The notes under the pieces: model-generated
Told to the model about the DNA's origin: nothing
Seen by the model: the letters and a program-made list of their open reading frames with translations, nothing else
The model's database searches: none
Shown here: positions 290 through 60,404 of the stretch, in pieces
Layout of the letters: each line of letters begins with the position of its first letter
How positions within the stretch are numbered: position 1 is the first letter of the stretch
From: an uncultured Oscillospiraceae bacterium
GTDB lineage: Bacteria; Bacillota; Clostridia; Oscillospirales; Oscillospiraceae
Assembly: GCA_947631865.1 (NCBI GenBank)
Contig: CANRNF010000002.1
Span: forward strand, 28,984-92,983
Length of the DNA stretch: 64,000 bases
Direction of reading: 5' to 3'
Translations under genes and position numbers: made by a program

Positions 290-331
290 AATAATAGTTA
301 AGAAATAATAAACTTGGGAGGTACATACAAA

Positions 332-35085: not shown

Positions 35086-35925
35086 ATGTTTCTCATAGAA
35101 AGAGCAGAGTTGGAAAGCTTCCGGGCGTATCTGCAGGAACGGGAGTGTAGCGCCGCGACGGTGGCCAAGTACATGCGTGATGTGAGGCAGCTGGCAGAGT
35201 TCTGCGGCGGGAGGGTCGAAGATAAGGGCACGCTCATCGCGTTCAAGGAGGAACTGCAGACGCGGGGGTATGCCGCGTCCAGCGTCAATTCCATGCTGGC
35301 TTCGGTAAACTGTTATCTGGCCTTTGCCGGCCGCATTGAGTGGAAGCTGCGGTATCTGAAGATCCAGAGGACGAACTTTGTCTGCAAGGAGAAAGAACTG
35401 ACTGAGCAGGAGTATCACAAGCTGGTGGAGATGGCCAGAGCGATGGGGGACAGCCGCCTGGCGATGCTGGTGCAGACGATCTGCGCCACGGGCATCCGGG
35501 TGAGCGAGGTGCGGGCCATCACGGTGGAGAGCCTGCGGACCGGGCAAGCGGAGATACGGAACAAGGGACGCATCCGGATCATCCTGCTTCCTAAGAGGCT
35601 GTGCGCGAACCTTTTAAAATACTGCCGGGAAAGAGGGATATCCCGTGGCCATGTATTCGTGACAAGGAGCGGACGTCCCATGGACCGGAGCAACATATGG
35701 AAGATGATGAAGCGGCTGGGGCAGTTGGCGAAGGTGGGAACGGCGAAGGTGTTTCCCCATAACCTGCGGCACCTGTTTGCAAGAACATACTATAAGGCCT
35801 ATAAGGACATCGTGCGTCTGGCGGACATCCTCGGTCACGCCAGCGTGGATACCACGCGTATCTATACCATTCGGACGGGAAAAGAACAGCAGCGGCAGAT
35901 AGAGCGCCTGCCGCTGCTGTTATAG
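35086..35925 (+). CDS. Tyrosine recombinase, probable invertase of the adjacent promoter switch
   Basis: The 279-aa product has an N-terminal SAM-like core-binding domain (about 1-95, SFRAYLQERECSAATVAKYMRDVRQLAEFC) and a catalytic domain with the full set of residues: Arg138 (GIRVSEVR), His225 and Arg228 (HNLRHLF), His251 (LGHASVDTTRIY) and nucleophile Tyr260. It is short, like XerC/D-type and phase-variation invertases, without the arm-binding domain of phage integrases. Its stop is 12 bp before the first of two 24-bp inverted repeats, each built as two 10-bp inverted arms about a 4-bp centre, as expected for its recombination sites. The role as DNA invertase is inferred. Confidence 0.9.
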   Translation: MFLIERAELESFRAYLQERECSAATVAKYMRDVRQLAEFCGGRVEDKGTLIAFKEELQTRGYAASSVNSMLASVNCYLAFAGRIEWKLRYLKIQRTNFVCKEKELTEQEYHKLVEMARAMGDSRLAMLVQTICATGIRVSEVRAITVESLRTGQAEIRNKGRIRIILLPKRLCANLLKYCRERGISRGHVFVTRSGRPMDRSNIWKMMKRLGQLAKVGTAKVFPHNLRHLFARTYYKAYKDIVRLADILGHASVDTTRIYTIRTGKEQQRQIERLPLLL

Positions 35926-35936
35926 AAAACAGTATA

Positions 35937-35960
35937 ACCACATAATTGGCATTATGTGGT
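35937..35960 (+). repeat. Left recombination site (IRL) of the invertible promoter
   Basis: Arms ACCACATAAT and ATTATGTGGT flank the asymmetric centre TGGC. The exact reverse complement is at 36262-36285. Homology does not extend beyond 24 bp on either side. Confidence 0.92.
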
Positions 35961-35996
35961 CATACCTAGATAAAACATTGTCGCACACTTTAAGGA

Positions 35997-36025
35997 ATTA
36001 TACATTGTTTCAAGCTTATTGTCAA
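35997..36025 (-). promoter_or_regulatory. Perfect consensus sigma-70-type promoter inside the invertible segment
   Basis: On the minus strand TTGACA (36025-36020), exactly 17 bp, then TATAAT (36002-35997). Transcription would start near 35990 and run leftward across IRL, antisense to the recombinase gene. No comparable plus-strand promoter is seen in the segment; the best is an extended -10 TGTTATATT at 36177-36185 without a -35. Confidence 0.88.
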
Positions 36026-36147
36026 CAAAACCAGACCCTCCAAATACTTGAAACCACTAGATTATCTAAGTTGTAACTATTTTTGTAACTATATATTGAT
36101 GTATAGGTGCAGACTTTTCTAGGTGCGCCTATTGCCTCTTGTCATCA

Positions 36148-36180
36148 TCCCCCATCATCTAATGTGGGGGACATTTTGTT
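36148..36180 (+). terminator. Terminator-like hairpin inside the invertible segment
   Basis: TCCCCCA and TGGGGGA pair (7 bp, 10-nt loop), followed by CATTTTGTT. In the present orientation it would stop read-through from the recombinase into the operon; after inversion it would lie upstream of the promoter in reverse. Confidence 0.5.
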
Positions 36181-36261
36181 ATATTGAGCCGTTTCGCGAG
36201 GTTCCGGTGCCGAGAGCTCACAATTAGTATTTTGGATATGAAGCTATCACCGCACCAAAGT

Positions 36262-36285
36262 ACCACATAATGCCAATTATGTGGT
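36262..36285 (-). repeat. Right recombination site (IRR) of the invertible promoter
   Basis: Arms ACCACATAAT and ATTATGTGGT flank centre GCCA, the exact reverse complement of IRL. It ends just before the AAGGGGG ribosome binding site (36287-36293) of the helicase gene, so inversion changes only the promoter, not the translation signal. Confidence 0.92.
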
Positions 36286-36300
36286 GAAGGGGGTCAGCGC

Positions 36301-38832
36301 GTGGGCATCGAACTGTATCCGCATAACGAAAAAGCCTATCGCGCCGTGCGGAAAATGCTGGACGAAAAGGGGCTCGCCGCCGTGGTCCATCCCACGGGGA
36401 CGGGCAAGTCCTTTATTGCCTTCAAACTGTGCGAGGACAACCCGGATAAGACCATCTGCTGGCTGTCCCCCAGTGAGTACATATTCAAAACCCAGCTTGA
36501 GAACGTGAAAACCTCCTCCGGCTATGAGCCGGAGAACATTGAGTTTTATACCTATGCCAAGCTCATGAATATGAGCGAGTCTGAGATAGCGGATATTCAG
36601 CCGGATATCATCGTGTTCGACGAGTTTCACCGCGCCGGCGCGGCCCAGTGGTCATTGGGAGTCGAGAGACTGCGCAGGATGTATCCCTCTGTCCCGATGT
36701 TGGGCCTGTCGGCTACGGCAGTGCGTTACCTTGATAATAAGCGAGATCTATGTGAGGAGCTTTTCAGCGGTTGTGTGGCCAGTGAGATGAGCCTGGGCGA
36801 GGCCATCGTCCGAGGCATCCTGCCTGCGCCCAAGTATGTGATGGCGTCGTTCGTGTACCAGAACGAACTGGAGCGGCTCAAGGAGCGGATATACAAAGCA
36901 CGCAACAGGGCGGTCCGCAGCGCTGCGGAGCAGTATTACGAGGCGCTGCGGCGGGCGCTGGAGAAAGCGGACGGCCTGGACGTGATCTTCGACAAGCACA
37001 TGACCGACCGGACCGGCAAGTATATTGTGTTTACCTCCAACATCCATGCCATGCGGGAATGCATGAGCCATGTGCCCGATTGGTTCGGCAGATTGGATGC
37101 GGAGCCGCATGTGTATTGGTTCTATACCCTGCAGCCGGATACACTGTCATCCTTTGAGGCCTTCAAAGTCGATGACGATGATACCCATCTGCGCCTGCTG
37201 TTCTGTATCGACGCGCTGAACGAGGGCGTCCATGTGGCGGATGTGGACGGTGTGATCCTGTTCCGGCCTACCGTCTCGCCCATCATCTATAAGCAGCAGA
37301 TCGGGCGGGCACTGTCCGCAGGGAAGACTGACACGCCTGTGATCTTTGACATCGTCAACAACTTTGAGGGGCTGTACAGCATCGGGTACATCGAGGAAGA
37401 GATGCGGACGGCGGTCACCTATTACAGAAGTTTTGGGGACGACAAGAAGATCATCACGGAGAGATTCAAGGTGGTGGATGAGGTCCGGGATTGCCGGCAG
37501 CTTTTTAACGCGCTGGAAGAGACGCTGTCGGCAACTTGGGATACGATGTACGACCGCGCGCGGCAGTACTTTGAAACATATGGCGATCTTGATGTCCCGG
37601 ATAAATACAAGACGCAGGATGGGCTGTCCCTTGGGTTGTGGATCACCACCCAGCGGCGGGTGTACAAGCACGAGCAATCCGGGATTCTGGGCGAAGACCG
37701 CATTGCGAAGCTGAACGCCATTGGAATGGAGTGGGATTCCTTTTCGGACCGTTCCTGGAAACGCCACTATGAATGTGCCCAGGCGTACTACAGGCGTTAC
37801 GGCGACCTGCGCGTCCCTACTGGATATATGACGGAGGAGGGCGTCCAGTTGGGGAGATGGATATCGAACCTCCGCACATACCGCAAGAATAATATCAAGT
37901 CGCGTTTTTTATCACCGGAACGGATACAGGCGTTGGACGATATTGGGATGTTCTGGAACGTCCCAGACTACCAGTGGGAAATAAATTACGCCGCTGCGAT
38001 GCGATATCACAGAGCGTACGGAGACTTGGATGTTCCGGCCGCTTATGTTGACTCTGAAAGGGTCCGGCTGGGCCAGTGGCTGAATAAAATGCGTACATTT
38101 AGGAAGAACGGGTCCTCTGGGTTGACGGAGGAACAGATAGCAAAGCTTGATGAGCTGGGCATGATCTGGGAAAAGGGCAGGGATCGAAAATGGGAGATCG
38201 GTTACGCGGCTGCGAAGGAATACTATGACCGGAACGGGCATTTGGCTGTGCCGTATGTATACGAGTCCCCCTCGGGTTTCAAGCTTGGTAACTGGATTTC
38301 TGACCAGAGAGAACAATTCCGAAAAGGAAAGATGAAACAGGATCGGATCGACCGACTGAACGCCATTGGAATGAAGTGGGATGTTCTCAGTGTGCACTGG
38401 GAGCAGAACTACTTGGAAGCGCAGCGCTATTACCAGGAGCACGGCGATTTGAACGTGCCGGCGAGATATAAAACGGACAGCGGCTTTGGCCTGGGCGCCT
38501 GGATTCGGAACATGCGGCAGGCCCGGCAGGAAGAGAATGAGAGCCGGCGGCTCACTCAAGAGCAGATCGTCCGGCTGGACGCCATCGGGATGGAGTGGGG
38601 CGACAGCTATGACAACCAGTGGGACCGGGCGTATGCGGAGGCGGCCAGCTATTACCGCCAGCACGGAACGCTGGATATGCCGGTGGCGTATAAGTCTCCG
38701 GACGGCCTGGCGCTGGGCCGATGGGTCCAGTGGCAGCGGTATGCTCTGCAGGATACGGAGAGGAAAGAGTCTCCACGGGCGGTGAAGCGCCGGGAAATGC
38801 TTAACAAGATCGGCATGAACTGGGGCGCGTAG
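36301..38832 (+). CDS. DEAD/DEAH-box helicase with tandem helicase-associated (HA) domains
   Basis: The GTG start lies 7 nt after AAGGGGG. The 843-aa product has a Superfamily 2 core: Walker A HPTGTGKSF (Lys36), DEFH box (107-110), SAT-like LGLSATAVRYL, a second RecA domain with FTSNIHAM and QIGRALSAGK. From about residue 415 there are six HA repeats of about 68 aa (W...Y..A..YY...GDL.VP..Y....G..LG.WI...R). HA domains are thought to bind nucleic acid. It is the first gene under the invertible promoter. Its role with a polysaccharide operon is unknown: possibilities are RNA or DNA remodelling during long-operon expression, recombination control, or defence. Confidence 0.9.
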   Translation: MGIELYPHNEKAYRAVRKMLDEKGLAAVVHPTGTGKSFIAFKLCEDNPDKTICWLSPSEYIFKTQLENVKTSSGYEPENIEFYTYAKLMNMSESEIADIQPDIIVFDEFHRAGAAQWSLGVERLRRMYPSVPMLGLSATAVRYLDNKRDLCEELFSGCVASEMSLGEAIVRGILPAPKYVMASFVYQNELERLKERIYKARNRAVRSAAEQYYEALRRALEKADGLDVIFDKHMTDRTGKYIVFTSNIHAMRECMSHVPDWFGRLDAEPHVYWFYTLQPDTLSSFEAFKVDDDDTHLRLLFCIDALNEGVHVADVDGVILFRPTVSPIIYKQQIGRALSAGKTDTPVIFDIVNNFEGLYSIGYIEEEMRTAVTYYRSFGDDKKIITERFKVVDEVRDCRQLFNALEETLSATWDTMYDRARQYFETYGDLDVPDKYKTQDGLSLGLWITTQRRVYKHEQSGILGEDRIAKLNAIGMEWDSFSDRSWKRHYECAQAYYRRYGDLRVPTGYMTEEGVQLGRWISNLRTYRKNNIKSRFLSPERIQALDDIGMFWNVPDYQWEINYAAAMRYHRAYGDLDVPAAYVDSERVRLGQWLNKMRTFRKNGSSGLTEEQIAKLDELGMIWEKGRDRKWEIGYAAAKEYYDRNGHLAVPYVYESPSGFKLGNWISDQREQFRKGKMKQDRIDRLNAIGMKWDVLSVHWEQNYLEAQRYYQEHGDLNVPARYKTDSGFGLGAWIRNMRQARQEENESRRLTQEQIVRLDAIGMEWGDSYDNQWDRAYAEAASYYRQHGTLDMPVAYKSPDGLALGRWVQWQRYALQDTERKESPRAVKRREMLNKIGMNWGA

Positions 38833-38883
38833 CGAAACAGCGATCTTGAGCAGTCTGCTTTGGATAAAGGGGCAAAAATATAT

Positions 38884-40869
38884 TTGGATAAGGACAGAGA
38901 GAAAAGAGGAATAGAACACTGGCAGCTGGTGAACGTGGGACTGGCGGTGTATGATGCCTTCGCGGTCAGCCTGTCGTTTTTCCTGGCGCTATGGCTGCGG
39001 TTCGATTGCCGGTATTCGGAGATACCGGGGGTCTATATCTCGGCATATCTGCATTTCATCCCATTTTATATAGTGGCCTGCCTCATCGTGTTCTGGTGCT
39101 GCAAGCTGTACCAGAGCATCTGGCGGTTCGCCAGCATGAACGAGATGCTGCGGACCATTGTGGCGACAGTCATCACATTTGTGATCCACACGGCGGGTAT
39201 TATCTTGTTCGTCCACCGCATGCCGGTTACCTATTACTTTGTGGGCATCATTTTGCAGTTTGCGGCGACAATAGGGATTCGGTATTCCTACCGATTTGTA
39301 CTGCTTCTGCGTGAAAACCGCTCTAAGGCACAGGATGGCCACCGGGTGATGCTGATAGGCGCCGGGCAGGCAGGCCATATGGTCCTGCGAGATTTGACAG
39401 CTGCGGAGGAGAACACGGACCAGATTTGCTGCATTATCGATGACAACCCTAATAAATGGGGCCGGTACATTGAGGGCGTGAAGGTGGTAGGCGGTCGGGA
39501 TGATATCCTGTCCCAAGTGGAGAAATACCACATCGACAAAATCTATTTGGCCATCCCCAGCGCGTCTGCGGAGACGAGGCGGGACATCCTGAACATCTGC
39601 AAGGAGACGGGCTGCGAGCTGAAGACGCTGCCGGGTATCTACCAACTGGTGAACGAGGACGTGGGCGTGCGGGACATGCAGGCCGTGTCCATGGAGGACC
39701 TTCTGGGTCGGGAGCCGGTGAAGGTGAACATGAAAGAGGTCTTCGACTATCTGTCCGGGAAGGTGATCCTGGTGACAGGGGGCGGCGGCTCCATCGGCAG
39801 CGAGCTCTGCCGGCAGATAGCAGATCATAAGCCGAAGCAGCTGATTATCTTCGACGTGTATGAGAACAACGCCTATAACATCCAGCTGGAGCTGCAGGAG
39901 AGATACCCGAAGCTGGACCTGGTGACACTGATCGGCTCTGTGCGGGACAGCCGGCGGATAGACCAGGTGTTTGCGGAATACGAACCGGAGGTGGTGTTCC
40001 ATGCGGCGGCGCACAAGCACGTGCCGCTGATGGAGACCAGCCCCTGCGAGGCCATCAAGAACAACGCCGTCGGTACATACAAGACGGCCTATGCGGCCAT
40101 CCACCACGGTTGCAGGCGATTCGTGCTCATCAGCACGGACAAGGCGGTGAATCCCACCAATGTAATGGGGGCGTCCAAGCGGCTTTGCGAGATGGTGATC
40201 CAGATGTTCGACCGGAAGATCAAGGCGGGGAAGGCGGACGAGATACCGGCGCTTTATACCCACACGGGGGACGAGTACGGCGGCGGTCATGTCTACACGC
40301 AGGATGCGGTGAACACGGAGTTCGCGGCGGTGCGGTTCGGCAACGTGCTGGGGAGCAATGGGTCGGTGGTGCCTATCTTCCAGCGGCAGATCGCTAAGGG
40401 CGGGCCAGTGACAGTGACCCACCCGGACATCATCCGGTATTTCATGACCATCCCGGAGGCGGTGAGCCTGGTGCTGCAGACCAGCGTCTACGCCCGGGGA
40501 GGCGAGATATTCGTGCTGGACATGGGCAACCCGGTGAAGATAGACACGCTGGCGCGGAACCTCATAAAGCTGTCGGGGTACAAGCCGGACGTGGACATCA
40601 AGATCGAGTACACGGGCCTGCGTCCCGGCGAGAAGCTCTATGAGGAGCGGCTGATGGCGGAAGAGGGCCTTCGCAAGACGGCCAACGACCTCATCAACAT
40701 CGGAAGCCCGCTGGAGTTTGATGACGACGAATTCCTGCGGCAGATGGACAAGCTGATGGACGCGGCGTATGCCAACGATACGGCGGAGATGCTGCCCATC
40801 CTGAGTGAGATGGTGACGACATATAAGCCGGCAAAGAGGGCAGAACTGGAACATGCAAAAGCGGTTTGA
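38884..40869 (+). CDS. Membrane UDP-N-acetylglucosamine 4,6-dehydratase-type protein (PglF/WbpM/CapD family)
   Basis: The start chosen is TTG 38884, 11 nt after AAAGGGG (38866-38872); TTG 38860 is an alternative. The protein of about 660 aa has four membrane helices in the first 130 residues, then a CoA-binding-like Rossmann domain (MLIGAGQAGHMVLRDL) and an SDR domain with VTGGGGSIGSELCRQI. The catalytic region is STDKAVNPTNVMGASKR, with Met in place of the usual SDR Tyr, as in 4,6-dehydratases of the WbpM/PglF type. It makes UDP-4-keto-6-deoxy-GlcNAc, substrate of the aminotransferase at 43016. Confidence 0.92.
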   Translation: MDKDREKRGIEHWQLVNVGLAVYDAFAVSLSFFLALWLRFDCRYSEIPGVYISAYLHFIPFYIVACLIVFWCCKLYQSIWRFASMNEMLRTIVATVITFVIHTAGIILFVHRMPVTYYFVGIILQFAATIGIRYSYRFVLLLRENRSKAQDGHRVMLIGAGQAGHMVLRDLTAAEENTDQICCIIDDNPNKWGRYIEGVKVVGGRDDILSQVEKYHIDKIYLAIPSASAETRRDILNICKETGCELKTLPGIYQLVNEDVGVRDMQAVSMEDLLGREPVKVNMKEVFDYLSGKVILVTGGGGSIGSELCRQIADHKPKQLIIFDVYENNAYNIQLELQERYPKLDLVTLIGSVRDSRRIDQVFAEYEPEVVFHAAAHKHVPLMETSPCEAIKNNAVGTYKTAYAAIHHGCRRFVLISTDKAVNPTNVMGASKRLCEMVIQMFDRKIKAGKADEIPALYTHTGDEYGGGHVYTQDAVNTEFAAVRFGNVLGSNGSVVPIFQRQIAKGGPVTVTHPDIIRYFMTIPEAVSLVLQTSVYARGGEIFVLDMGNPVKIDTLARNLIKLSGYKPDVDIKIEYTGLRPGEKLYEERLMAEEGLRKTANDLINIGSPLEFDDDEFLRQMDKLMDAAYANDTAEMLPILSEMVTTYKPAKRAELEHAKAV

Positions 40870-40947: not shown

Positions 40948-41659
40948 ATGAAAAAGGATCTGAATTCCCGCGCCGTTAATAAGGAATTTGTGAAAGACGT
41001 GATTGAATGGGATGTGAATAACTGGTGGAGAGCCGTTACGTTTTGGGGCAAAATATACCCAATGCAGGATTTATCCGGAAAGAAAGTTCTTGATATAGGG
41101 GGAAGAAATGGAGGCCTTTCCCTGTATTTTGCTTTAAAAGGCGCGGATGTAATATGTTCGGATATTAATGAATCCGGATTTGATAAGGCAAGAGAACTTC
41201 ATAGAAAATACAATATTCAATCAAAAATATCATATGAAATAATAGATGCAACGAAGATACCGTATGAATCATATTTTGATGTCGTGTGTTTCAAATCTGT
41301 TGTGGGGGGGGGTAGGACGTAATAATAATTTTGAAAGGCAGAAGGAAATGATGGGGAGCATTTATAACTCATTAAAAAAGGACGGCGTCCTATTATTTGC
41401 TGAAAATCTAAAAGCGACTATGATCCATCAGGTATTGAGAAAAACATTTGCAAAGAAAAATTGGAGATATATATCTTTGGAAGAGGCGCTGCAATTAGCG
41501 GGGCCATTCTCAGAGACGAGTTATAAAACTTTTGGGTTTCTTGGCGTGCTTGGACGAAATCAGTGGTTGAATAATGCTTTGAGTGCAATAGATAACTTGT
41601 TTGATAGATGTTTAAAGGAACAATATAAATATATTATTTCGTGTGTATGTAGAAAATAG
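40948..41659 (+). pseudogene. SAM-dependent methyltransferase, out of frame at a G9 tract (phase-off or assembly error)
   Basis: The frame from ATG 40948 gives the class I motif KVLDIGGRNGGLSLYFALKGADVICSDINESGF and ends at a TAA soon after the G9 run 41304-41312. With eight Gs the reading continues as FKSVVGGVGRNNNFERQKEMMGSIYNSLKKDGVLLFAENL to the stop at 41659, a normal methyltransferase of about 237 aa. The motif VGGVGRNNN spans the tract, so G8 is the functional length. The gene is AT-rich compared with its neighbours, which suggests recent transfer. It probably methylates a sugar. Confidence 0.82.
41304..41312 (+). repeat. G9 homopolymer in the methyltransferase gene
   Basis: Nine G then TA. 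Nine gives a frameshift; eight restores the conserved reading frame. Confidence 0.85.
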
Positions 41660-41719: not shown

Positions 41720-42967
41720 ATGGAGAAGCGAATGATCCCATTCAGCCCGCCGGATATCAGCGAGCTGGAGATACAGGAAGTGGCGGAGACGCTGCGGTCG
41801 GGCTGGATAACCACCGGCCCGCGGACAAAGGAGCTTGAAAAATGCCTGGCGGCCTATATCGGCGTAGACAAGGCTGTGTGCCTGAACTCGGCAACGGCGG
41901 CGGAGGAGCTGAATCTGCGGATGCTGGGCATCGGCGAGGGCGACGAAGTCATCGTGCCGGCCTATACATACACCAGCTCCGCCGCCGCGGCGATCCATGT
42001 GGGCGCAAAGGTCGTGTTCATCGACTCCCAGCCAGGCTCCGCGGAGATGGACTATAACGCCATGGAAGCGGCCATCAACGAGCGGACGAAGGCCATCGTG
42101 CCGGTGGATCTGGGCGGCGTGGTGTGCGATTATGACCGCGTTTTTTCGGTGGTGGAGCGTAAGAGAGGGTTGTTCCGACCGTCCGGCAATACGGACCTGG
42201 GCCGGCGGCTGCAAAAGGCGCTGGGGCGCGTGGCCGTGGTGGCCGACTGCGCCCATGCGTTGGGTTCAGTGTGGCACGGAAATAAAGCGGGAGCTATCGC
42301 GGACTTTTCCAGTTTCAGCTTCCACGCGGTGAAGAATTTCACCACGGCAGAGGGCGGCGCCAGCACTTGGCGGAGCATACCAGGGATTGATGACGAAGAG
42401 CTCTATAAATGGTTCCAGCTGTATTCCCTGCATGGGCAGTCAAAGGACGCGTTGGCCAAAACGAAGCTGGGCGCTTGGGAGTATGACATCGTCGCGCCGC
42501 TTTATAAATGCAATATGACGGACATCATGGCGGCCATCGGCCTGAAACAGCTAGAGCGGTATGAGGGACTGCTGGCCCGGCGGCGGGAGATTATATCCCG
42601 CTATGACGCGATGTGCGACGAATTGGGCGTAGAGCATATCGTTCACAGCGGTGAGGACTTTCAGTCCTGCGGGCATCTTTATATCACGCGCGTTCCCAGG
42701 GCGGACGATGGCTGCCGCCGGGAGATCATCACGAAAATGGCGGAGCGGGGCGTGGCCTGCAATGTGCACTATAAGCCCCTGCCGATGATGACAGCCTATA
42801 AGGCACTGGGGTGGGATATCAAAGACTTTCCCAACGCTTACAAGCTGTATGAAAACGAGATCACTCTGCCGCTGCACACGAAGCTGGCGGATGAGGATGC
42901 GGAGTATGTGATGGAGAACTTCAAAGGCGTACTGAAAGATGTCGTGGGGGGGGGTACCTTCCTCTGA
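41720..42967 (+). CDS. DegT/DnrJ/EryC1 PLP aminotransferase with G9 tract at its 3' end
   Basis: The 415-aa product converts a keto sugar to an amino sugar. The N-terminus is MIPFSPPDISELEIQEVAETLRSGWITTGPRT, with PLP-site motifs NSATAAEELNLRMLGIGEGDEVIVPAYTYTSSA, DCAHALGS and the PLP Lys in SFHAVKNFTTAEGG. At 42946-42954 a G9 run gives a short end (VVGGGTFL). With eight Gs the frame would instead run 17 codons further to TGA 43017-43019 and overlap the next ATG by 4 bp. It came in with the methyltransferase cassette. Confidence 0.9.
   Translation: MEKRMIPFSPPDISELEIQEVAETLRSGWITTGPRTKELEKCLAAYIGVDKAVCLNSATAAEELNLRMLGIGEGDEVIVPAYTYTSSAAAAIHVGAKVVFIDSQPGSAEMDYNAMEAAINERTKAIVPVDLGGVVCDYDRVFSVVERKRGLFRPSGNTDLGRRLQKALGRVAVVADCAHALGSVWHGNKAGAIADFSSFSFHAVKNFTTAEGGASTWRSIPGIDDEELYKWFQLYSLHGQSKDALAKTKLGAWEYDIVAPLYKCNMTDIMAAIGLKQLERYEGLLARRREIISRYDAMCDELGVEHIVHSGEDFQSCGHLYITRVPRADDGCRREIITKMAERGVACNVHYKPLPMMTAYKALGWDIKDFPNAYKLYENEITLPLHTKLADEDAEYVMENFKGVLKDVVGGGTFL
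42946..42954 (+). repeat. G9 homopolymer at the 3' end of the first aminotransferase gene
   Basis: Nine G then TACC. Tract length decides between two C-termini and whether the gene overlaps (ATGA) the next start. Confidence 0.85.
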
Positions 42968-43015
42968 GGTAATCCTTTTCAAAGAGATCGTGCCGCGTAA
43001 GAAAGCGGAGGCGGC

Positions 43016-44290
43016 ATGATGAAGCGGTTTAAGGAAAAGCTTTGGCTGTCTTCTCCGACGATGCATGGGGAGGAACTGGCATACATAGAGCAGGCCATCC
43101 GGGCCAACTGGGTATCCACGGTGGGAGAGAACATCAACGAGCTGGAGCGGATGATTGCTGGGTATGTGGGCGTGGAGCACGCGGTGGCGCTGTCCAGCGG
43201 GACGGCGGCGCTGCATCTGTGCATGAAGCTGGCTGGAGAGCGCCTGAACCCAGGCGCGAAGCCGGGCAAAGCATTGGAGGGCATGCGGGTGTTCTGCTCG
43301 GACATGACCTTCGACGCCAGCGTGAACCCGGTGGTGTATGAGGGCGGCGAGCCGGCCTTCATCGATACGGAGGCCGATACCTGGAACATGGACCCGGCGG
43401 CGCTGGAAAAGGCCTTCGGGATGTACCCGGACGTGAAGCTGGTGGTGCTGGTCCATCTGTATGGCGTGCCGGCGAAGATGGACGAGATCGTATCCATCTG
43501 CCGGGCCCATGGGGCGCTGATCGTGGAGGACGCGGCGGAGGCCCTGGGGGCGGAGTACCGCGGTGACATCGTGAGCGGCAGGTGCGGCAGCTTCGGGGAC
43601 TTTATTGCCGTCAGCTTCAACGGGAACAAGATCGTGACGGGCAGCTCCGGCGGGATGTTTTTGACCAACGGCCGGTCTGACGCGGACAAGGTGCGCAAGT
43701 GGAGCACCCAGAGCCGGGAGGACGCGCCCTGGTACCAGCATGAGGAGCTGGGGTACAACTACCGGATGAGCAACATCATCGCGGGGCTTGCCAGGGGGAA
43801 CATGCTGCATGTCGACGAGCACATCGCCCAGAAGAAGGCTATTTACGAGCGATATAAGGAAGGGTTTGGGGACCTGCCCGTTGTGATGAATCCCTTTGAA
43901 GAAATGAGCAGCCCCAACTACTGGCTGAGCTGTATGCTGATCGATGAAAGTGCCATGTGCCGGCAGGAGCGTGGCGAAAAGCGGGCGCTGTACATCTCCG
44001 AGCCGGGCAAGAGCTGCCCGACGGAGATATTGGAGACGCTGGCGGCGTGCAACGCGGAGGGACGGCCCATCTGGAAGCCCATGCACATGCAGCCCATCTA
44101 CCGGATGGATCCGTTTGTGACGCGCCAGGGAAACGGCCGGGCGCGGAGCAACGCGTACATAGACGAGGGCATCATCACGGACGTGGGGGCGGACATCTTC
44201 CGGCGGGGGCTGTGCCTGCCCAGCGACAACAAGATGACCCCGGAGCAGCAGGATAGAGTGATAGAGATCGTCAGGGAGTGTTTTGCTTGA
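43016..44290 (+). CDS. DegT-family aminotransferase, probable UDP-4-amino-4,6-dideoxy-sugar aminotransferase (PglE/LegC-like)
   Basis: The 424-aa product has KRFKEKLWLSSPTMHGEELAYIEQAIRANWVST at its start, SSGTAALHLCMKLAG, EDAAEALGAEYRG and the PLP Lys in SFNGNKIVTGSSGGM. The family aminates the 4-keto product of PglF-type dehydratases. Together with the gene at 38884 and the sugar transferase that follows, this suggests a bacillosamine-like first sugar. The original neighbour was probably the dehydratase, as the 5' remnant at 40853 shows. Confidence 0.9.
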   Translation: MMKRFKEKLWLSSPTMHGEELAYIEQAIRANWVSTVGENINELERMIAGYVGVEHAVALSSGTAALHLCMKLAGERLNPGAKPGKALEGMRVFCSDMTFDASVNPVVYEGGEPAFIDTEADTWNMDPAALEKAFGMYPDVKLVVLVHLYGVPAKMDEIVSICRAHGALIVEDAAEALGAEYRGDIVSGRCGSFGDFIAVSFNGNKIVTGSSGGMFLTNGRSDADKVRKWSTQSREDAPWYQHEELGYNYRMSNIIAGLARGNMLHVDEHIAQKKAIYERYKEGFGDLPVVMNPFEEMSSPNYWLSCMLIDESAMCRQERGEKRALYISEPGKSCPTEILETLAACNAEGRPIWKPMHMQPIYRMDPFVTRQGNGRARSNAYIDEGIITDVGADIFRRGLCLPSDNKMTPEQQDRVIEIVRECFA

Positions 44291-45030
44291 CAGATACAAC
44301 GGTACATACCAAACACAAGCCATACGGGCCCTATGAAAAGTACTTCAAACGGCCGCTGGATATGGTGTGCGCGTTGCTGGCGATGGTCGTGTTCTGTTGG
44401 CTGTATGCGCTCGTGGCGGTGCTGGTACGGGTGAAGCTTGGGAACCCGGTGCTGTTCACCCAGCCGCGGCCGGGGAAGGATGAGAAGATTTTTAAGCTGT
44501 ATAAATTCCGGACGATGACGGATGAACGGGATGAGAACGGCGAGCTGCTGCCGGACGAGGTGCGGCTGACGAAGTTCGGAAAGCTGTTGCGCTCCACGAG
44601 TTTGGACGAGATGCCGGAGGCCATCAATATCCTGAAGGGCGACATGAGCGTGGTGGGGCCGCGGCCGCAACTGGTCCGGGATATGGTGTTCATGACGCCG
44701 GAGCAGAGGCGGCGGCACTGTGTCCGACAGGGGCTGACCGGCATGGCCCAGGTGAATGGTAGAAATGGGATCGGCTGGGAGGAGCGTTTTGCCTGGGATC
44801 TGAAGTATGTGGAGAAGATCACCTTCCTGGGCGATGTGAAGATCGTCTGCAGGACAGTGCTGAAAGCCTTTGTCCGACAGGAGGGCATCACGGAGGGCGA
44901 TATGGCCACGTCCCAGGATCTGGGGGATTATCTTCTTCAGCGTGGAGCGGTTGACCAGGCTGAATATGATAGTTTGATGTGCCGGGCCAGGGAAATGTAT
45001 CCTCGGCCCAACGCCGCTGTTAGGAGTTGA
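44287..45030 (+). CDS. Initiating undecaprenyl-phosphate sugar-1-phosphate transferase (PglC/WcaJ family)
   Basis: The start chosen is TTG 44287, 8 nt after AGGGAG and overlapping the previous stop; GTG 44278 is an alternative. The product of about 247 aa has one re-entrant membrane helix (YFKRPLDMVCALLAMVVFCWLYALVAVLV), the catalytic region LFTQPRPGKDEKIFKLYKFRTM, DELPE-like LDEMPEAINILKGDMSVVGPRP and GLTGMAQVNGRNG. It loads the first sugar phosphate on the lipid carrier. The C-terminus is about 45 residues longer than PglC. Confidence 0.93.
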   Translation: MTDTTVHTKHKPYGPYEKYFKRPLDMVCALLAMVVFCWLYALVAVLVRVKLGNPVLFTQPRPGKDEKIFKLYKFRTMTDERDENGELLPDEVRLTKFGKLLRSTSLDEMPEAINILKGDMSVVGPRPQLVRDMVFMTPEQRRRHCVRQGLTGMAQVNGRNGIGWEERFAWDLKYVEKITFLGDVKIVCRTVLKAFVRQEGITEGDMATSQDLGDYLLQRGAVDQAEYDSLMCRAREMYPRPNAAVRS

Positions 45031-45107: not shown

Positions 45108-46805
45108 ATGAGAAGAGTTTTGGTAACCTCTACAAATACATCGATGCATGAGTTTTTGCTTCCGCATATCAAATGCCTGATTGAAAACGGATATGTGGTC
45201 GAAATAGCCTGTTCCCATGTTGCCGGACGTTTTGAACAACTGAACGAGGCGGTCGGGGAAGAGGTAAAGGTACATCGCGTCAACTTATATAGAAGCCCGG
45301 TCAGGATCGGTAACCTGAAAGGATTGCGAGAGCTCAGGCAGATCATCCGGGATGGGCATTTTGACCTGATCTGGACCAACGAGCCGGTGATGGGCGTGAT
45401 GACCAGACTGGCCGCCATACCGGCGCGGAGAACCGGGACAAAGGTCCTCTATATGGCCCACGGCTTCCATTTCTTTCATGGTGCGCCCCTGAAAAACTGG
45501 CTGCTGTATTACCCTGTTGAGAAGATCATGTCGGTCTGGACCGACATTCTGGTCACTATCAACCAGGAAGATTATGCTTTGGCAAAGAAAAAGATGCACG
45601 CAAAACAAGTAGAGTACATTCCCGGAATAGGAGTAGATACAAATAGGTTCTTCCCGGATGCGGTGACAGAGGGTAAGAAAGACGCGATCAGACGCTCGCT
45701 GGGATTGGAACGCGGCGACAAAATGCTTCTCTCAGTCGGCGAGCTGATCCCCAGGAAAAATCATGAAGTTGTGATCCGGGCCCTTGCCGAGCTAAGGGCT
45801 CCCAGCATCAAGTATTACATCTGCGGAGAGGGTGAGCTACGGCCGGAGCTGGAGGCGCTGATCGAAAAACTGGGGCTTGAAGGCTCCGTGTTTTTGTTAG
45901 GCTACCGTGAAGATATCCCCCAACTCTGTGCGTGCGCGGATCTGTTTATTATGCCGTCCCTCCAGGAAGGCCTGCCGGTAGCGCTGATGGAAGCGCTCGC
46001 TTCCAAGACGCCGGCGATATGCGCAAACATTCGTGGGAATACGGATCTGATCGCAGGAAAGAACGCGCTCTTTGAGTGTAGAGACGTTTCCGGCGCGGCG
46101 GCGAAGATCACGGAATACCTCACAGAGCCTCATGATGATGAGGTCGAACGCAATTACGAAAATATAAAGAGATTTGACCTTGAGAGCGTCAAAGAAAGCG
46201 TCAAAAAACTAGCGGGGGGGGGTATTCACCGAGTCTATAGAGCGCAGGAACTAAGACGTTCGCTTGATATACCGCTGGACGCGTTTGTCTTGCTGTCGGT
46301 CGGGGAGCTCCAGGAGCGGAAGAACCACATCGTAGCGATCGAGGCCCTCCATCAGCTAAACCTGCCGAATGTGTACTATATCATCGCTGGGCGGGGAGAA
46401 CTCAAGGATAAATACGAGAAACTGATCGCGCAATACGGCATGAACGGGACGGTAAGGCTTCTTGGATACAGGAATGATATAGATCAGCTGTGCGCTGCGG
46501 CCGACTGTTTCGTGCACCCCTCGATCAGAGAGGGGTTTGGGATCGCGCCGATGGAGGCGATGGTCAGCGGACTGCCGCTGATAACCGCTGACATCAATGG
46601 TATGAAGGATTATACAAAGGACGGCGTCACTGGCTGCTGTGTCGATCCCCGCTCAGTGGAGGAAGTGTGCACGGCCATCACAAGGATGTACGAAGATCCT
46701 GCGTTCCGAAGTGAATGCAGCAGAAATAATCGCGAGATCGCAAAAAAATATGGTATAGATATCAGTAAAAAAGAAGTGCTGAACATTATTAATGGGGTCT
46801 GGTGA
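45108..46805 (+). CDS. Fusion of a complete GT4 glycosyltransferase and the C-terminal half of a second one, joined at a G9 tract
   Basis: Residues 1-368 are a full EpsD-like GT4 enzyme (HGFHFFHGAPLKNWLLY, GIGVDTNRFFPDAV, LLSVGELIPRKNHEVVIRALAEL, PSLQEGLPVALMEAL). Then G9 (46214-46222) encodes three Gly. Residues 373-565 repeat only the C-terminal Rossmann half of another GT4 (LLSVGELQERKNHIVAIEALH, HPSIREGFGIAPMEAM). Eight or ten Gs would end the first enzyme within about 15 codons, at a normal length. In the present frame the extra half-domain lacks its acceptor domain and is probably inactive or regulatory. Confidence 0.85.
   Translation: MRRVLVTSTNTSMHEFLLPHIKCLIENGYVVEIACSHVAGRFEQLNEAVGEEVKVHRVNLYRSPVRIGNLKGLRELRQIIRDGHFDLIWTNEPVMGVMTRLAAIPARRTGTKVLYMAHGFHFFHGAPLKNWLLYYPVEKIMSVWTDILVTINQEDYALAKKKMHAKQVEYIPGIGVDTNRFFPDAVTEGKKDAIRRSLGLERGDKMLLSVGELIPRKNHEVVIRALAELRAPSIKYYICGEGELRPELEALIEKLGLEGSVFLLGYREDIPQLCACADLFIMPSLQEGLPVALMEALASKTPAICANIRGNTDLIAGKNALFECRDVSGAAAKITEYLTEPHDDEVERNYENIKRFDLESVKESVKKLAGGGIHRVYRAQELRRSLDIPLDAFVLLSVGELQERKNHIVAIEALHQLNLPNVYYIIAGRGELKDKYEKLIAQYGMNGTVRLLGYRNDIDQLCAAADCFVHPSIREGFGIAPMEAMVSGLPLITADINGMKDYTKDGVTGCCVDPRSVEEVCTAITRMYEDPAFRSECSRNNREIAKKYGIDISKKEVLNIINGVW
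46214..46222 (+). repeat. G9 homopolymer at a glycosyltransferase fusion junction
   Basis: Nine G then TATT. The in-frame state joins two GT4 pieces; other lengths separate them. Confidence 0.85.
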
Positions 46806-46866: not shown

Positions 46867-47592
46867 ATGATAACCCCGAAAATGATCAAGGAAAAATCAA
46901 TGACGGCGGAGAAAAAGAAAATTAGTCACAACAACTACTTTCCTCGCTTTGTTCTTCGGCCGGTCAGTTACGTGCTCACGGTCCCGTTTCTGGAGGCGGG
47001 CGTGTCCGCAAATATGGTATCGTTCCTGTCGATCTTTGTCAGCATCGCGGCGTTTATCCTGCTTGGTTTTACCCCTGGGAAGGCAGCGCAGATCGCCGGT
47101 GTGCTGATGTTCTTTCTGTGGTGCGTTATGGACTGCGTGGATGGGAATATAGCGCGCTACACCGGGAAGGCGTCAGCACATGGAGTGCTGTGGGATGCCG
47201 CGGCGGGGTATGTGTCGCTGCCGTTGATGTACTTTTCCATGGGGGTGAGCGTCATGAACATGGGAAAGGGCGTCTTTCCACTGGTCGTGCCGGACTATTA
47301 TTATGTGGTGCTGGGCGCCCTGACGGCGATGTTTACGCTATATCCGAGACTTGTCCTGCACAAAAAGGAAGCAATGTTCACGGAAAGCGTAGGCAAGGAG
47401 TTTACAGATAAGACGACCTACTCTATGGCAGAGAATATCATGCTCAACCTGACTTCTTCTACCGGCTTTTTGACGCCGATCATGCTCGTGGCTGTCATAT
47501 TTGATCTGGGCAGGGAATTCACCTTGGCGTATTTCCTGATCCACTTGGCTATCACGCTCGTATCCATGATGAGAATCATGAAAGAGGATTGA
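46867..47592 (+). CDS. CDP-alcohol phosphatidyltransferase-family membrane protein
   Basis: The 241-aa integral membrane protein moves a phospho-alcohol from a CDP-alcohol to an acceptor hydroxyl. The signature is nearly complete: DCVDGNIARYTGKASAHGVLWDAAAGY gives D-x2-DG-x2-AR-x8-G-x3-D, but the fourth Asp (expected four residues later) is Gly. That Asp is thought to act as base, so activity is uncertain. In this operon it could use CDP-choline or a related product of the genes at 56347 and 57047. Confidence 0.82.
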   Translation: MITPKMIKEKSMTAEKKKISHNNYFPRFVLRPVSYVLTVPFLEAGVSANMVSFLSIFVSIAAFILLGFTPGKAAQIAGVLMFFLWCVMDCVDGNIARYTGKASAHGVLWDAAAGYVSLPLMYFSMGVSVMNMGKGVFPLVVPDYYYVVLGALTAMFTLYPRLVLHKKEAMFTESVGKEFTDKTTYSMAENIMLNLTSSTGFLTPIMLVAVIFDLGREFTLAYFLIHLAITLVSMMRIMKED

Positions 47593-47645: not shown

Positions 47646-48719
47646 ATGAATGTGCTTGTTGTAGGCGCGGGCATTGCTGGCGCTGTTACGGCGCGGCGGC
47701 TTGCGGAAGAGAACGGCCATCATGTCCTGATCGTTGAAAAGCGGGATCATATCGGCGGATACTGCTATGACTATCGCAGCGAGGAAGGGATATTGGTCCA
47801 TAAGTACGGACCGCATATTTTCCGTACGCAGTCGAAAAAAGTATGGGACTATCTGTCCAGATTCACGCAGTGGCACGACTATCAGCACAAGGTCCTGGCG
47901 AACGTCAACGGCCATTTTTATCCTATGCCGATAAACCTTGACACGGTCAACCGCTTTCTTGGAACGAACTATTCATCCAAAGAGGCGGAGGAATTCTTTG
48001 CCCGGAGCCGGACGGCGAGCGGGACGATCCACAGTGTAAAAGACGTGATCGAGAGCCAGATCGGCCCGGAGTTTTATCATGCTTTTTTTGAGGGTTACAC
48101 AGAGAAACAGTGGGGCGCGCCCTGCGAACAGCTGCCCGCGGAGATCGTCGCGCGTATTCCGATCCGCAGCGGCCGGGATGATAGATACTTCATCCATAAG
48201 TATCAGGCGATGCCCAAGGATGGATACACCCAGATGATTCGCCGTATCCTGGACCATCCTAATATACATGTTTTGCTGAACACTGACTACAGACAGATCA
48301 AAGACCTGGGTGGTTTTTCCCATATTTATTGCAGCGCTCCCATCGACGAATATTACGACTATCGGTATGGCCGGCTCCCCTATCGCGGCGTGAGGTTTGA
48401 ATTCTTCACACTCCCGTGCAAACAGTATCAGCCAGTGGCGGTGGTCAACTATCCGAACAACTATGACTACACGCGGATAACGGAATTCAAGCATTTTTAT
48501 ATCAATAACACAAAGAATACGGTGATAGCGAAAGAGTACCCGGGGGGGGGTACTTTGGAACCGTCCTATCCTATCCCTACGGAGGAAAACAAAGAGCTCT
48601 ACCAGAAGTATTCGCGGCTCGCAGACGAAGCGACTACATTTATCGGCAGGCTGGGAGAGTATCGGTATTACAGCATCGATCAGATCGTAGAGAGCATTCT
48701 GGGCATGGAGCTCGTTTAA
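47646..48719 (+). CDS. glf: UDP-galactopyranose mutase, first copy
   Basis: The 357-aa flavoenzyme makes UDP-galactofuranose. FAD site VVGAGIAGAVTARRLAEENGHHVLIVEKRDHIGG, substrate region GPHIFRTQSKKVWDYLSRF, YTEKQWG and the C-terminal GRLGEYRYYSIDQ are all present. At 48542-48550 a G9 run encodes GGG before TLEPSYPIPTEENKELYQKY, in frame. This copy is clearly different in sequence from the second one at 60405, so they did not arise by recent duplication. Confidence 0.93.
   Translation: MNVLVVGAGIAGAVTARRLAEENGHHVLIVEKRDHIGGYCYDYRSEEGILVHKYGPHIFRTQSKKVWDYLSRFTQWHDYQHKVLANVNGHFYPMPINLDTVNRFLGTNYSSKEAEEFFARSRTASGTIHSVKDVIESQIGPEFYHAFFEGYTEKQWGAPCEQLPAEIVARIPIRSGRDDRYFIHKYQAMPKDGYTQMIRRILDHPNIHVLLNTDYRQIKDLGGFSHIYCSAPIDEYYDYRYGRLPYRGVRFEFFTLPCKQYQPVAVVNYPNNYDYTRITEFKHFYINNTKNTVIAKEYPGGGTLEPSYPIPTEENKELYQKYSRLADEATTFIGRLGEYRYYSIDQIVESILGMELV
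48542..48550 (+). repeat. G9 homopolymer inside glf copy 1
   Basis: Nine G then TACT, in frame. A change of one G would replace the last roughly 57 residues, including the FAD-binding GRLGEYRYY region. Confidence 0.85.
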
Positions 48720-48759
48720 ACCGGCGCGAAAACGCGGTAAAGGTGATAGGAGACTGAAC

Positions 48760-49758
48760 ATGGAGAAACTGCTGACCATATCCGTCGCGGCATACAACGT
48801 GGAGCAATACCTTGAACAGACATTGGCGTCCCTGAACGACAGCCGGTTTTTGGACGACATTGAGGTCTTGGTCGTTGACGACGGGTCGAAGGACGGAACG
48901 AAAGACATCGCGCTGAAGTATCAGGCTATGGCGCCGGATACATTCCGCTATGTGGGCAAAGAGAACGGCGGCCACGGTTCCACGATCAACATGGGCATGA
49001 AGCTGGCGACCGGGAAGTATTTCCGCGTGCTGGACGGAGACGACTGGGTAGATACAAACGGCTTTGCCAGGTATATCGAAGCGCTGAGTTCGTCCGATGC
49101 GGATCTGGTCCTCACGCAGCTCGTAAGAGTCAAGGGAGCGGAGGAGAAGCTGCGTGTCGGCGCGAAGGGCATGGAGAGCGGCCGGGTATACACATGGGAT
49201 GACGACATTTATGTAAACCAGACGACGCTGGGCGTGACGACGATCAAAACGTCGCTGTTGAAAGAAAACGGGGTCCATATCACGGAAAACTGCTATTACG
49301 TGGACATGGAGTTTACGATCTGGATGTGTGCCCTCTCCCGGACTATCCAAAGCTTGGATATACCGGTCTATATGTACAGAGTAGGCACCGTGACGCAGAG
49401 CACGAACAAGAACAACAGGATCAAAAATATCGCGATGCAGGAGAAAGTGTCCCGCAGCGTTACGTTGATGTATGAGCAGTTCCGAAAGAAGGACGATTTT
49501 AGGGGGTTAAAAAGGGATGTCATCTTCCGCCGCGTTGCACAATCGGTAGGTGCCACAGTGAGATCCTATCTGTTGATGGACGACGCCGCAAAGGTGAAGG
49601 AGAATGTGGCCCGTTTTGAGGAGTCTATCCGTGCGCTGTCTCAGGACGTATATGATGAACTTGGCAAGAGCAGGTTTTTCCGCTTCCTTCGATATAAGAA
49701 TTATATGCTGCTGCCTGTCATGAGCAGGGCGTTTAAGGTATGGATCAAATTGCGATAA
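48760..49758 (+). CDS. GT2 family glycosyltransferase
   Basis: The 332-aa GT-A enzyme starts MEKLLTISVAAYNVEQYLEQTLASL, with DDGSKDGTKDIA, GKENGGHGSTINMGMKLATGKYFRVLDGDDWVD carrying the DxD-type metal site, and a later MDMEFTIW segment (YVDMEFTIWMC). It adds one sugar to the lipid-linked repeat unit. Start behind GATAGGAG. Confidence 0.92.
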   Translation: MEKLLTISVAAYNVEQYLEQTLASLNDSRFLDDIEVLVVDDGSKDGTKDIALKYQAMAPDTFRYVGKENGGHGSTINMGMKLATGKYFRVLDGDDWVDTNGFARYIEALSSSDADLVLTQLVRVKGAEEKLRVGAKGMESGRVYTWDDDIYVNQTTLGVTTIKTSLLKENGVHITENCYYVDMEFTIWMCALSRTIQSLDIPVYMYRVGTVTQSTNKNNRIKNIAMQEKVSRSVTLMYEQFRKKDDFRGLKRDVIFRRVAQSVGATVRSYLLMDDAAKVKENVARFEESIRALSQDVYDELGKSRFFRFLRYKNYMLLPVMSRAFKVWIKLR

Positions 49759-49777
49759 GAAACGGGGATAGGAAATA

Positions 49778-50821
49778 ATGAACTATTATGTGCAGGAGAC
49801 GCCGTACGCGAAACAGATGAGAGGTGCTTGGGGCAAGGCACATGGAGACATAAATATAATATTGTCAAATATGGGCTATAAAGCCTTGGAGATGCCGAAG
49901 AGTAAGAGAAACAGCCTCATCAATAGAGCGATACGGCAAGGAACCGTTTATTTCCGATGGAAGAAATTGCTGAAGGTTCTCGAACCAGGTGACACCTTGG
50001 TCGTTCAGCATCCGCCTCTGGAAAACACAGTGTTGTTTCCCTATATCGTAAAACGAGCAGACAAAATGCACATAAAGGTCATTCTCATCATCCATGATTT
50101 GGCCAGCTTGCTCAAAGTGACATTTCCAAAAAAGATAATATTTGCTTCTGTAGATCGAAAAGTATTTGCAGAGGTAGATCACATTATAGCACACAACGAG
50201 AGCATGATAAGGAAACTGGCGGACAATACACCCAAAATGATCCCGCTGGAGATATTTGATTATCTCATTGATGGATTTGATCCAAACAGAGCAGATAAGG
50301 GTGCTATCCGCAAGGACCTGCCGATCATAATTGCAGGAAATCTGAATCCTCAAAAGACCGGATATCTGTATGACCTTCCCGAAGATTGTCAGTACAACGT
50401 ATATGGTGTTGGATTCATCGATGAAGGGAAGGAGAATATCCACTATATGGGAAGCTTTCCGCCGGAGGACCTTCCGTATGTATTGAGCGGCAGTTTTGGC
50501 CTGGTATGGGATGGCGACAGCGGCGCTACCTGCAGCGGGATCTATGGGGAGTACATGAAAATCAATAATCCTCATAAGACATCGCTGTATCTGGCCTCCG
50601 GCGTTCCAGTGATCATATGGCGCGAAGCGGCGATGGCGGATTTTATATTGAAAAATCACTGCGGTATCGCTGTGGATTCCTTATCTGAGATCGCGCCGAT
50701 CATCCGGCAGATGACGGAAGAGGAGTACGAAGAACTCAAACGTAATGCCGGCCTGGTCGGGGAGAGACTGCGGAGTGGGTATTATATGAGGAACGCCATC
50801 CAAAAGGCAATTTCCGGATGA
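49778..50821 (+). CDS. Galactofuranosyltransferase-like GT-B glycosyltransferase
   Basis: The 347-aa product matches the Gtf3/WefE-like family that transfers galactofuranose or glucose in streptococcal-type glycans: YAKQMRGAWGKAHGDIN, GDTLVVQHPPLENT, IHDLASL, VYGVGFIDEGKENIHYMGSFPPEDLP, GSFGLVWDGDS, and GEYMKINNPHKTSLYLASGVPVI. It likely uses UDP-Galf from the glf genes. From here base composition turns AT-rich. Confidence 0.85.
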   Translation: MNYYVQETPYAKQMRGAWGKAHGDINIILSNMGYKALEMPKSKRNSLINRAIRQGTVYFRWKKLLKVLEPGDTLVVQHPPLENTVLFPYIVKRADKMHIKVILIIHDLASLLKVTFPKKIIFASVDRKVFAEVDHIIAHNESMIRKLADNTPKMIPLEIFDYLIDGFDPNRADKGAIRKDLPIIIAGNLNPQKTGYLYDLPEDCQYNVYGVGFIDEGKENIHYMGSFPPEDLPYVLSGSFGLVWDGDSGATCSGIYGEYMKINNPHKTSLYLASGVPVIIWREAAMADFILKNHCGIAVDSLSEIAPIIRQMTEEEYEELKRNAGLVGERLRSGYYMRNAIQKAISG

Positions 50822-54305: not shown

Positions 54306-54318
54306 GATCGGCGGAGAT

Positions 54319-55764: not shown

Positions 55765-55805
55765 GGGTCACAGATCGAAATGATGAATACGACAGAAAAA
55801 AAGCT

Positions 55806-56308: not shown

Positions 56309-56346
56309 GGGGAAAACGAACAGAGCTTCATTATTGGAGGTGACGC

Positions 56347-58690: not shown

Positions 58691-58751
58691 GATGAATAAG
58701 TCCGTGATCGTATAGCGAGACCTAAATTTAATTCACTAAAGGAGAAATGTT

Positions 58752-59549: not shown

Positions 59550-59567
59550 TGAGGTCCTCTGGCCAGG

Positions 59568-60392: not shown

Positions 60393-60404
60393 GGAACAGT
60401 TGAA

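Follow-up and report, generated by a model that had tools for sequence, protein, structure and literature searches.

A predicted invertible promoter with an adjoining Xer-like recombinase upstream of a helicase-headed, likely capsule-type operon in an uncultured Oscillospiraceae bacterium

In the window (i.e., the whole 64-kb stretch of DNA analyzed here), a tyrosine recombinase gene is followed by a pair of inverted repeats that enclose a promoter and by a long series of genes on the same strand. The recombinase and the features of the putative switch are as follows, with positions counted from the first nucleotide of the window.

35086..35925, + strand: tyrosine recombinase of 279 aa, Xer-like, predicted invertase of the switch (Pfam Phage_integrase, 9e-24, and SAM_1)
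35937..35960, + strand: left recombination site, arms ACCACATAA and TTATGTGGT around the 6-bp centre TTGGCA (sequence)
35961..36261, no strand: predicted invertible segment of 301 bp, with its promoter facing the recombinase (OFF) in the assembly (repeat and promoter scans)
35997..36025, − strand: sigma-70-type consensus promoter TTGACA-N17-TATAAT (12 of 12 positions)
36148..36181, + strand: terminator-like hairpin with a T-rich tail, facing the operon when the segment is OFF (relaxed scan)
36262..36285, + strand: right recombination site, whose centre TGCCAA is the exact reverse complement of the left centre (sequence)
36287..36293, + strand: AAGGGGG, resembling a ribosome-binding site (sequence)

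The two 24-bp repeats, which the original prediction had described as exact and as enclosing 301 bp, are indeed 100% complementary. Each of them is itself a near-palindrome (left, ACCACATAA-TTGGCA-TTATGTGGT; right, ACCACATAA-TGCCAA-TTATGTGGT), in which two 9-bp arms surround a 6-bp centre and the asymmetry of the centre alone gives the site its direction; we take this geometry to be of the dif type. At up to three mismatches the palindromic site occurs just twice in the 64-kb window, while shuffled sequences contained on average 0.01 copies and none of 100 shuffles contained two, which rules out a chance origin of the repeats. The minus-strand promoter matches the consensus at 12 of 12 positions (36025..35997) with a 17-bp spacer and points away from the operon. 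A 15-nt stretch containing AAGGGGG separates the right repeat from the GTG start codon of the first operon gene at 36301, and after inversion the −10 element would end at 36225, 75 nt before that GTG. The repeats and their spacing, the promoter and its distance from the GTG after inversion agree with what had been proposed, except that the recombinase gene ends 11 bp, and not 12 bp, before the left repeat; the dif-like design of the sites goes beyond that proposal. The stem of the hairpin (36148-36171) passed a relaxed terminator scan but failed a stricter one. This plus-strand hairpin, the helicase nature of the first operon gene and nine further cassettes in the genome had all escaped the original prediction.

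The recombinase is encoded by an open, full-length frame. Its best NCBIfam model is XerA_Arch, a model that also names integron integrases and for which the protein scores below the cut-off, and its best relative of known structure is XerC-like (PDB 4a8e, 1e-21). R138, K160, H225, R228, H251 and Y260, which we take to be the catalytic residues, are kept in the alignment with 4a8e, as expected from the earlier claim of a complete catalytic set.

Downstream of the switch lie 20 genes on the same strand:

36301..38832, + strand: first operon gene, SF2 helicase of 843 aa with six HA repeats (Pfam HA, 4.9e-117 over six stretches, ResIII and Helicase_C; RadD/XPB-like core by fold)
38860..40869, + strand: nucleotide-sugar dehydratase/epimerase family protein (Pfam Polysacc_synt_2)
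40948..41659, + strand: methyltransferase-like open reading frame (Pfam) and an overlapping small open reading frame without a Pfam match
41720..44290, + strand: two DegT/DnrJ-family aminotransferases (Pfam)
44278..45030, + strand: bacterial sugar transferase (Pfam Bac_transf)
45108..46805, + strand: glycosyltransferase, group 1 (Pfam)
46867..47592, + strand: CDP-alcohol phosphatidyltransferase family protein (Pfam)
47646..50821, + strand: UDP-galactopyranose mutase, family 2 glycosyltransferase and, below the cut-off, a galactofuranosyltransferase-like protein (domain matches)
50891..52234, + strand: oligosaccharide repeat-unit polymerase, Wzy-like (TIGR04370, 2.3e-37, over the cut-off)
52272..54305, + strand: glycyl radical enzyme, PFL-like (domain matches)
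54283..55764, + strand: flippase, Wzx-like (Polysacc_synt match)
56347..61526, + strand: cytidylyltransferase, nucleotidyltransferase/choline-kinase-like fusion, metallo-hydrolase, glycyl-radical activase and second UDP-galactopyranose mutase (domain matches)

The content of these genes is that of a polysaccharide locus and, together with their number, fits the proposed capsule-like locus of at least 20 genes. A gap of 582 nt (55765-56346), however, separates the last five of them from the rest, so that the 20 genes may form one transcript or more than one. We noticed that the locus carries two UDP-galactopyranose mutase genes (47646-48719 and 60405-61526) as well as a short PFL-like glycyl radical enzyme (52272-54305) with a radical-SAM activase (59568-60392). 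The PFL-like enzyme scores far under the cut-offs of all named equivalogs, and glycyl radical chemistry is unusual for a capsule operon. Elsewhere in the window, an open frame of 1909 aa with 39 Sel1 repeat matches (314-6043) is overlapped by an opposite-strand frame of 1764 aa.

Queried with the recombinase and switch region, the genome of this probable gut bacterium showed paralogues on many contigs. Ten cassettes of this design, the one in the window counted, are present in it. In each of them an inverted site pair starts 4-15 nt after the recombinase stop codon and encloses 239-301 bp, and in all ten the promoter matches 11 or 12 of the 12 consensus positions. The promoter points toward the recombinase (OFF) in six cassettes (the window and, named after their contigs, C1a, C15, C108, C39 and C58) and toward the target gene (ON) in the other four (C1b, C106, C96 and C115). 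A whole-genome scan at up to three mismatches returned 23 sites, compared to none for a reversed control pattern; 20 of the 23 form the ten pairs, and the other three have more diverged partners. Since the genome is a 150-contig assembly that is 87% complete, near-duplicate cassettes could reflect a mixture of strains. The cassettes of C106, C96 and C115 (loci L011, L012 and L017) are 94-95% alike in two comparisons, are all ON, have one centre in common and are followed by two helicase genes in a row and then by a Wzz-like gene (Pfam-confirmed in L017); they represent either a tandem array or a strain mixture. The genome also holds a sister site type, ACCACAGAA-N6-TTCTGTGGT, at L018, L020 and L103 (contigs C14, C59 and C23), and the recombinases of C14 and C59 are 57 and 52% identical, respectively, to that of the window.

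Among other genomes, represented by one genome per species, 35 relatives of the recombinase were found, and in 30 of these the gene is closely followed by an inverted site pair; of the remaining five, L074 shows no site and four lie on contigs that stop at most 212 nt from the gene. These 30 loci and the ten cassettes of the window's own genome make up the 40 two-site loci considered below; two single-site cases (L111 and G239), four loci at contig ends (L049, L056, L065 and L066) and L074 were left out of the pair counts. Recombinase intactness was checked in all 40: 39 of the genes are full-length and open, and the 40th, in C115, is cut by the contig end. The enclosed segments measure 155-374 bp and contain no open frame longer than 71 aa, and every one of them has a promoter-like sequence that matches at least 9 of 12 consensus positions (at least 11 of 12 in 30 segments). 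When orientation was assigned by the best promoter, 31 loci were OFF and 9 ON; with promoters of at least 11 of 12 only, the numbers were 21 and 9. Few members of the taxonomic family have the site: with up to one mismatch allowed, it occurs in 9 of 300 sampled genomes, the window's own included.

What lies behind these switches varies. The first switched gene encodes the same HA-repeat helicase in 12 of the 40 loci, including the window, and elsewhere a giant secreted-type protein (such as in C1a and C15), an Rrf2-type regulator or other proteins. The Rrf2-type regulator follows the switch in seven Mediterraneibacter loci (L057, L059, L068, L069, L071, L072 and L073; assigned by Pfam in L071 and by similarity in the remaining six), and the output of these switches may thus be a regulon, not a single operon. 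In five loci (L043, L046, L051, L052 and L058), one end or both carry an additional tandem site, whose centre is that of the inner pair. A phage origin of the switch was considered and rejected: an exact-arm scan of viral contigs led to one contig, L127, which is itself a cassette with a recombinase and matched centres, and all the recombinase relatives in phage records fall below 60% identity (74 records), the best being 42% identical over 97%. In plasmid records, relatives of 45-52% identity are accompanied by site pairs in L128, L130 and L131 (4 of 926 records examined); a further plasmid locus, L129, had no site at up to five mismatches and was left out of the counts. It should be noted that L130 (NZ_OY725740.1), a 335-kb record labelled as a plasmid, carries nusG, secE and rpmG and may therefore be a piece of a chromosome.

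The centres of the sites turned out to be matched and mostly private to each locus. Although the sites in the 40 loci were located by their arms alone, the two centres of every locus are exact reverse complements of each other; mismatches within loci thus amount to 0 of 240 centre positions vs. 29 of 720 arm positions, the latter spread over 20 loci. Thirty-one different centres occur in the 40 loci, beginning with T (34) or C (6) and ending mostly with A (31). In the wider collection, centres match between the two ends in 55 of 56 pairs, or in 53 of 54 arm-selected pairs when L100 and L102, which came from an inverted-repeat search and so match by construction, are excluded. The one mismatched centre (C23, same genome) adjoins a recombinase broken into several frames and comes with two arm mismatches; this is a single case, in which an assembly error is possible. 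Centres also appear to change in concert. C1a and its ortholog L044, 98% identical over 7.5 kb, have the centres TCGGTA and TCAGTA, respectively, with the one base changed at both ends, a pattern expected if strands are repeatedly exchanged across the centre, and the difference between the centres of the window and L040 is likewise present at both ends. Within the window's own genome, cassettes have a centre in common only in two groups of similar copies, C96/C106/C115 (segments at least 99.7% identical) and C108/C58/C39 (86-100%), so that not every locus has a barcode to itself. The arms vary with the recombinase subfamily, ACCACAGAA being found with the C14 type.

Further analyses of the 40 segments revealed intrinsic terminators on the strand opposite to the promoter, where they face the operon when the segment is OFF. 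In a strict scan such terminators were detected in 15 segments, compared to 1.1 expected from shuffles, and 25 segments failed it; a terminator on the promoter's own strand was detected in 5.

Both orientations are found among homologous segments. In two Mediterraneibacter metagenome-assembled genomes, the 277-bp segments of L071 and L072 are 100% identical but inverted, with flanking identities of 95.6% along 6.9 kb and 99.5% along 421 bp. C1a and C106 have oppositely oriented segments with 90% identity along their full length, and those of the window and C1b are 78% identical over 172 bp, also in opposite orientation. The closest orthologs of the window locus, L040 and L041, are both OFF. 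Given these observations and the arrangement in the window, where inverted repeats flank a consensus-matching promoter upstream of the target operon, we infer that inversion also takes place at the window locus itself. We consider it most likely that the 301-bp promoter segment is inverted at its exact 24-bp sites by the adjoining Xer-like recombinase, switching the helicase-headed, likely capsule-type operon on and off, and the proposed invertible promoter assembled in the OFF state is thus supported both by the anatomy of the window and by the related cassettes.

The recombinase would cut where the arms meet the 6-bp centre (TTGGCA / TGCCAA) and, as the dif-like geometry suggests, the strands would be exchanged between the two sites. 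In the ON state, the transcript would begin about 70 nt upstream of the GTG of the helicase gene and extend into the polysaccharide genes. In the OFF state, the promoter would face the recombinase gene, and the terminator-like hairpin, then facing the operon, would likely block read-through. As the 6-bp centre differs between loci, private centres likely prevent recombination among most of the ten switches.

The proximity of gene and sites points to one recombinase per locus. Action in trans is nevertheless conceivable, since a capsule promoter of Phocaeicola vulgatus still inverts beside a defective recombinase, as described in the parts of PMC13114119 covered here, and since, according to the covered portion of PMC12632263, a single global invertase (Mpi) serves seven capsule loci in B. 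fragilis. A distant paralogue or master invertase could similarly invert the segment in the window, the adjoining gene being idle or otherwise used, and nine close paralogues, one of them cut by a contig end, stand beside the same site type in the genome. We regard this as unlikely, because 30 of the 35 relatives are followed directly by a site pair and the contigs of four more end soon after the gene, the arms change with the recombinase subfamily (ACCACAGAA with the C14 type), and the sole cassette with a broken recombinase, albeit one case, has mismatched centres. Less probable still, and in our view very unlikely, is that the window locus is a relic in which the repeats and recombinase are kept while the segment has become fixed OFF in the lineage, leaving the operon silent or otherwise promoted. 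No inverted copy of the exact window segment was seen, its closest orthologs are OFF too, and C23, with its broken recombinase, mismatched centre and two arm mismatches, indicates that decay does happen; against decay in the window are its open and full-length recombinase, the exact 24-bp sites with matching centres and the concerted difference from L040 at both ends. That the sites serve the integration and excision of a mobile element, as integron- or IMEX-like dif-like sites, instead of a promoter switch is extremely improbable, because, despite the resemblance of recombinase and site to Xer/dif and the integron integrases named by the best NCBIfam model, the sites are inverted pairs (20 of the 23 genome sites in ten pairs), which would invert rather than excise, and the 40 short segments carry promoter-like sequences in place of longer open frames.

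The helicase at the head of the switched operon belongs to a very large family, with at least 5312 proteins at E ≤1e-40 (8000 scored), and HA-repeat helicases were listed in at least 4 of 117 genomes of the order and at least 5 of 243 genomes of the class, the window's own genome in both. A helicase-only search, made without regard to switches, scored 8 of 10 candidates in that genome and 4 of 14 in G633, so that further helicase loci may exist. In the window's own genome, five helicases lie directly behind a switch (in the window, C1b, C106, C96 and C115; that of C1b is known from a separate comparison and was not in the list of the helicase search), three more are second in tandem at C106, C96 and C115, and for one, on C16 and amid sugar genes, no switch was found.

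At least 11 helicase loci were listed outside that genome, two of which (L124 and L125) are cut at the contig end. A long inverted repeat was found upstream of the helicase in 8 of the 9 readable loci: its right arm lies 2-73 nt before the helicase start in seven (L100, L113, L120, L121, L122, L123 and L126), one gene intervenes in L102, and L101 has no inverted repeat upstream of the helicase. The inverted-repeat scores at the eight loci range from 16 to 29 vs. maxima of 10-14 in 30 shuffles per region, and a repeat within 150 nt of the start was found for 7 of 9 helicases vs. 0 of 80 neighbouring control genes in the same stretches. The switches linked to helicases are of two distinct kinds. 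The first is that of the window, to which L100 and L102 belong with recombinases 44 and 41% identical, respectively, to the window's. The second (L120, L121, L122 and L126) has the sites TTAAGT-N5-ACTTAA or near, again with matched, locus-specific centres, and a phage-type integrase with a different N-terminal domain inside the repeats (Pfam tested in L120); the integrase of L121 is oriented opposite to those of L120 and L122. In L113 and L123, short promoter segments are flanked by TTAAG-containing repeats, and the part seen contains no recombinase. Loci in which a bacterial sugar transferase gene lies downstream of the helicase are the window, L010, L040, L100, L101, L102, L120, L121, L122 and L124; in its place, L125 has an Alg14-like gene and L126 a dehydrogenase-cytidylyltransferase gene.

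By predicted fold, the helicase core matches not only RadD, XPB and restriction translocases but also RIG-I-type RNA helicases; because the model is modest (pLDDT 79, pTM 0.43), only the match to an SF2 core was used. PADLOC matches are partial (the best being a type IV restriction enzyme, 1.5e-16, and PbeA, 1.3e-11) and identified no defence system, so that a defence helicase was not adopted as an assignment, and a DNA-repair or defence factor that is switched together with the capsule is a possibility. Alternatively, and hypothetically, the HA-repeat helicase could be an operon-specific elongation factor. Each of the six genomes searched gave a single NusG match and thus no additional NusG-like factor comparable to UpxY. 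In the open-licence literature, we found no report joining the helicase associated domain with capsular polysaccharide. A helicase-domain gene of P. vulgatus interrupts a polysaccharide locus headed by upxY, in the account given by the covered parts of PMC13114119, an arrangement that differs from the helicase-headed loci described here.

The switches share features with several known systems and differ from each of them. Like Xer/dif, they combine a single Xer-like recombinase with the geometry CATAA-N6-TTATG, which we liken to dif. In contrast to Xer/dif, the sites are paired, inverted and arm-symmetric and bracket a promoter beside their own recombinase; inverted pairs, and a recombinase that scores below the equivalog cut-offs, do not indicate dimer resolution. 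The likeness to the capsule promoters of Bacteroidaceae is closer, for there, too, in the sections of PMC12632263 covered, a promoter lies between inverted repeats before a capsule operon, several loci occur per genome and a regulatory gene is often first. Recombinase genes are also frequently upstream of invertible promoters in Bacteroidaceae, as far as PMC13114119 was covered. Unlike Mpi, one global invertase acting on unlinked switches that have none of their own, every cassette here carries its own recombinase, and unlike operons that begin with UpxY, a NusG-like antiterminator, the window operon begins with an SF2 helicase with HA repeats. Clostridial switches are known as well. In Clostridioides difficile, according to the portion of PMC9286219 covered, invertible switches likewise have short inverted repeats, the pdcB switch containing an invertible promoter; RecV is required for at least two switches (flg and cmr), and the recombinase for pdcB is given as unidentified. 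The present cassettes differ in that the recombinase is directly adjacent and the cargo consists of capsule-type genes or giant surface-type proteins. Inverton group 139 with invertase group 35 of hCom2, a defined gut community, is clostridial (32 of 33) and has a nearby tyrosine recombinase; the two members for which coordinates are given are 255 and 257 bp long, and reads from the group revealed shifts in orientation (PMC11892184, in the parts covered). Compared by description, motif aside, this group possibly belongs to the same family as the window switch; the main text of PMC11892184 does not contain the word helicase, and the parts covered make no mention of locus-specific centres.

Invertible capsule promoters, best known from Bacteroides, and clostridial invertons are thus already known. 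In the literature covered, what appears to be new are private centres that evolve in concert, ten self-contained cassettes of the same type in one genome and capsule loci headed by a helicase. As a tentative and more doubtful extension of the inversion itself, we propose that Clostridia possess a battery of orthogonal, barcoded capsule and surface-protein switches, in which each recombinase would recognize the shared arms, recombination would be confined to sites with the same 6-bp centre and strand exchange, by repeatedly copying one end to the other, would make the centres evolve in concert, and that the HA-repeat helicase, joined to two distinct kinds of inverted-repeat switch, may be a clostridial counterpart of UpxY, i.e., a DNA-translocating, operon-specific factor for elongation or anti-termination that is produced solely in the ON state. 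If confirmed, the site rule of shared arms and a private centre would explain why the chromosome is not scrambled although it carries many near-identical recombinases and would predict cross-talk between loci that share a centre, such as C96/C106/C115. It would also make matched vs. mismatched centres a read-free sign of live vs. dead switches and would provide recombinase sites that are orthogonal to one another. That HA-repeat helicases repeatedly come first in switched capsule loci suggests a concrete and testable role for a very large protein family.
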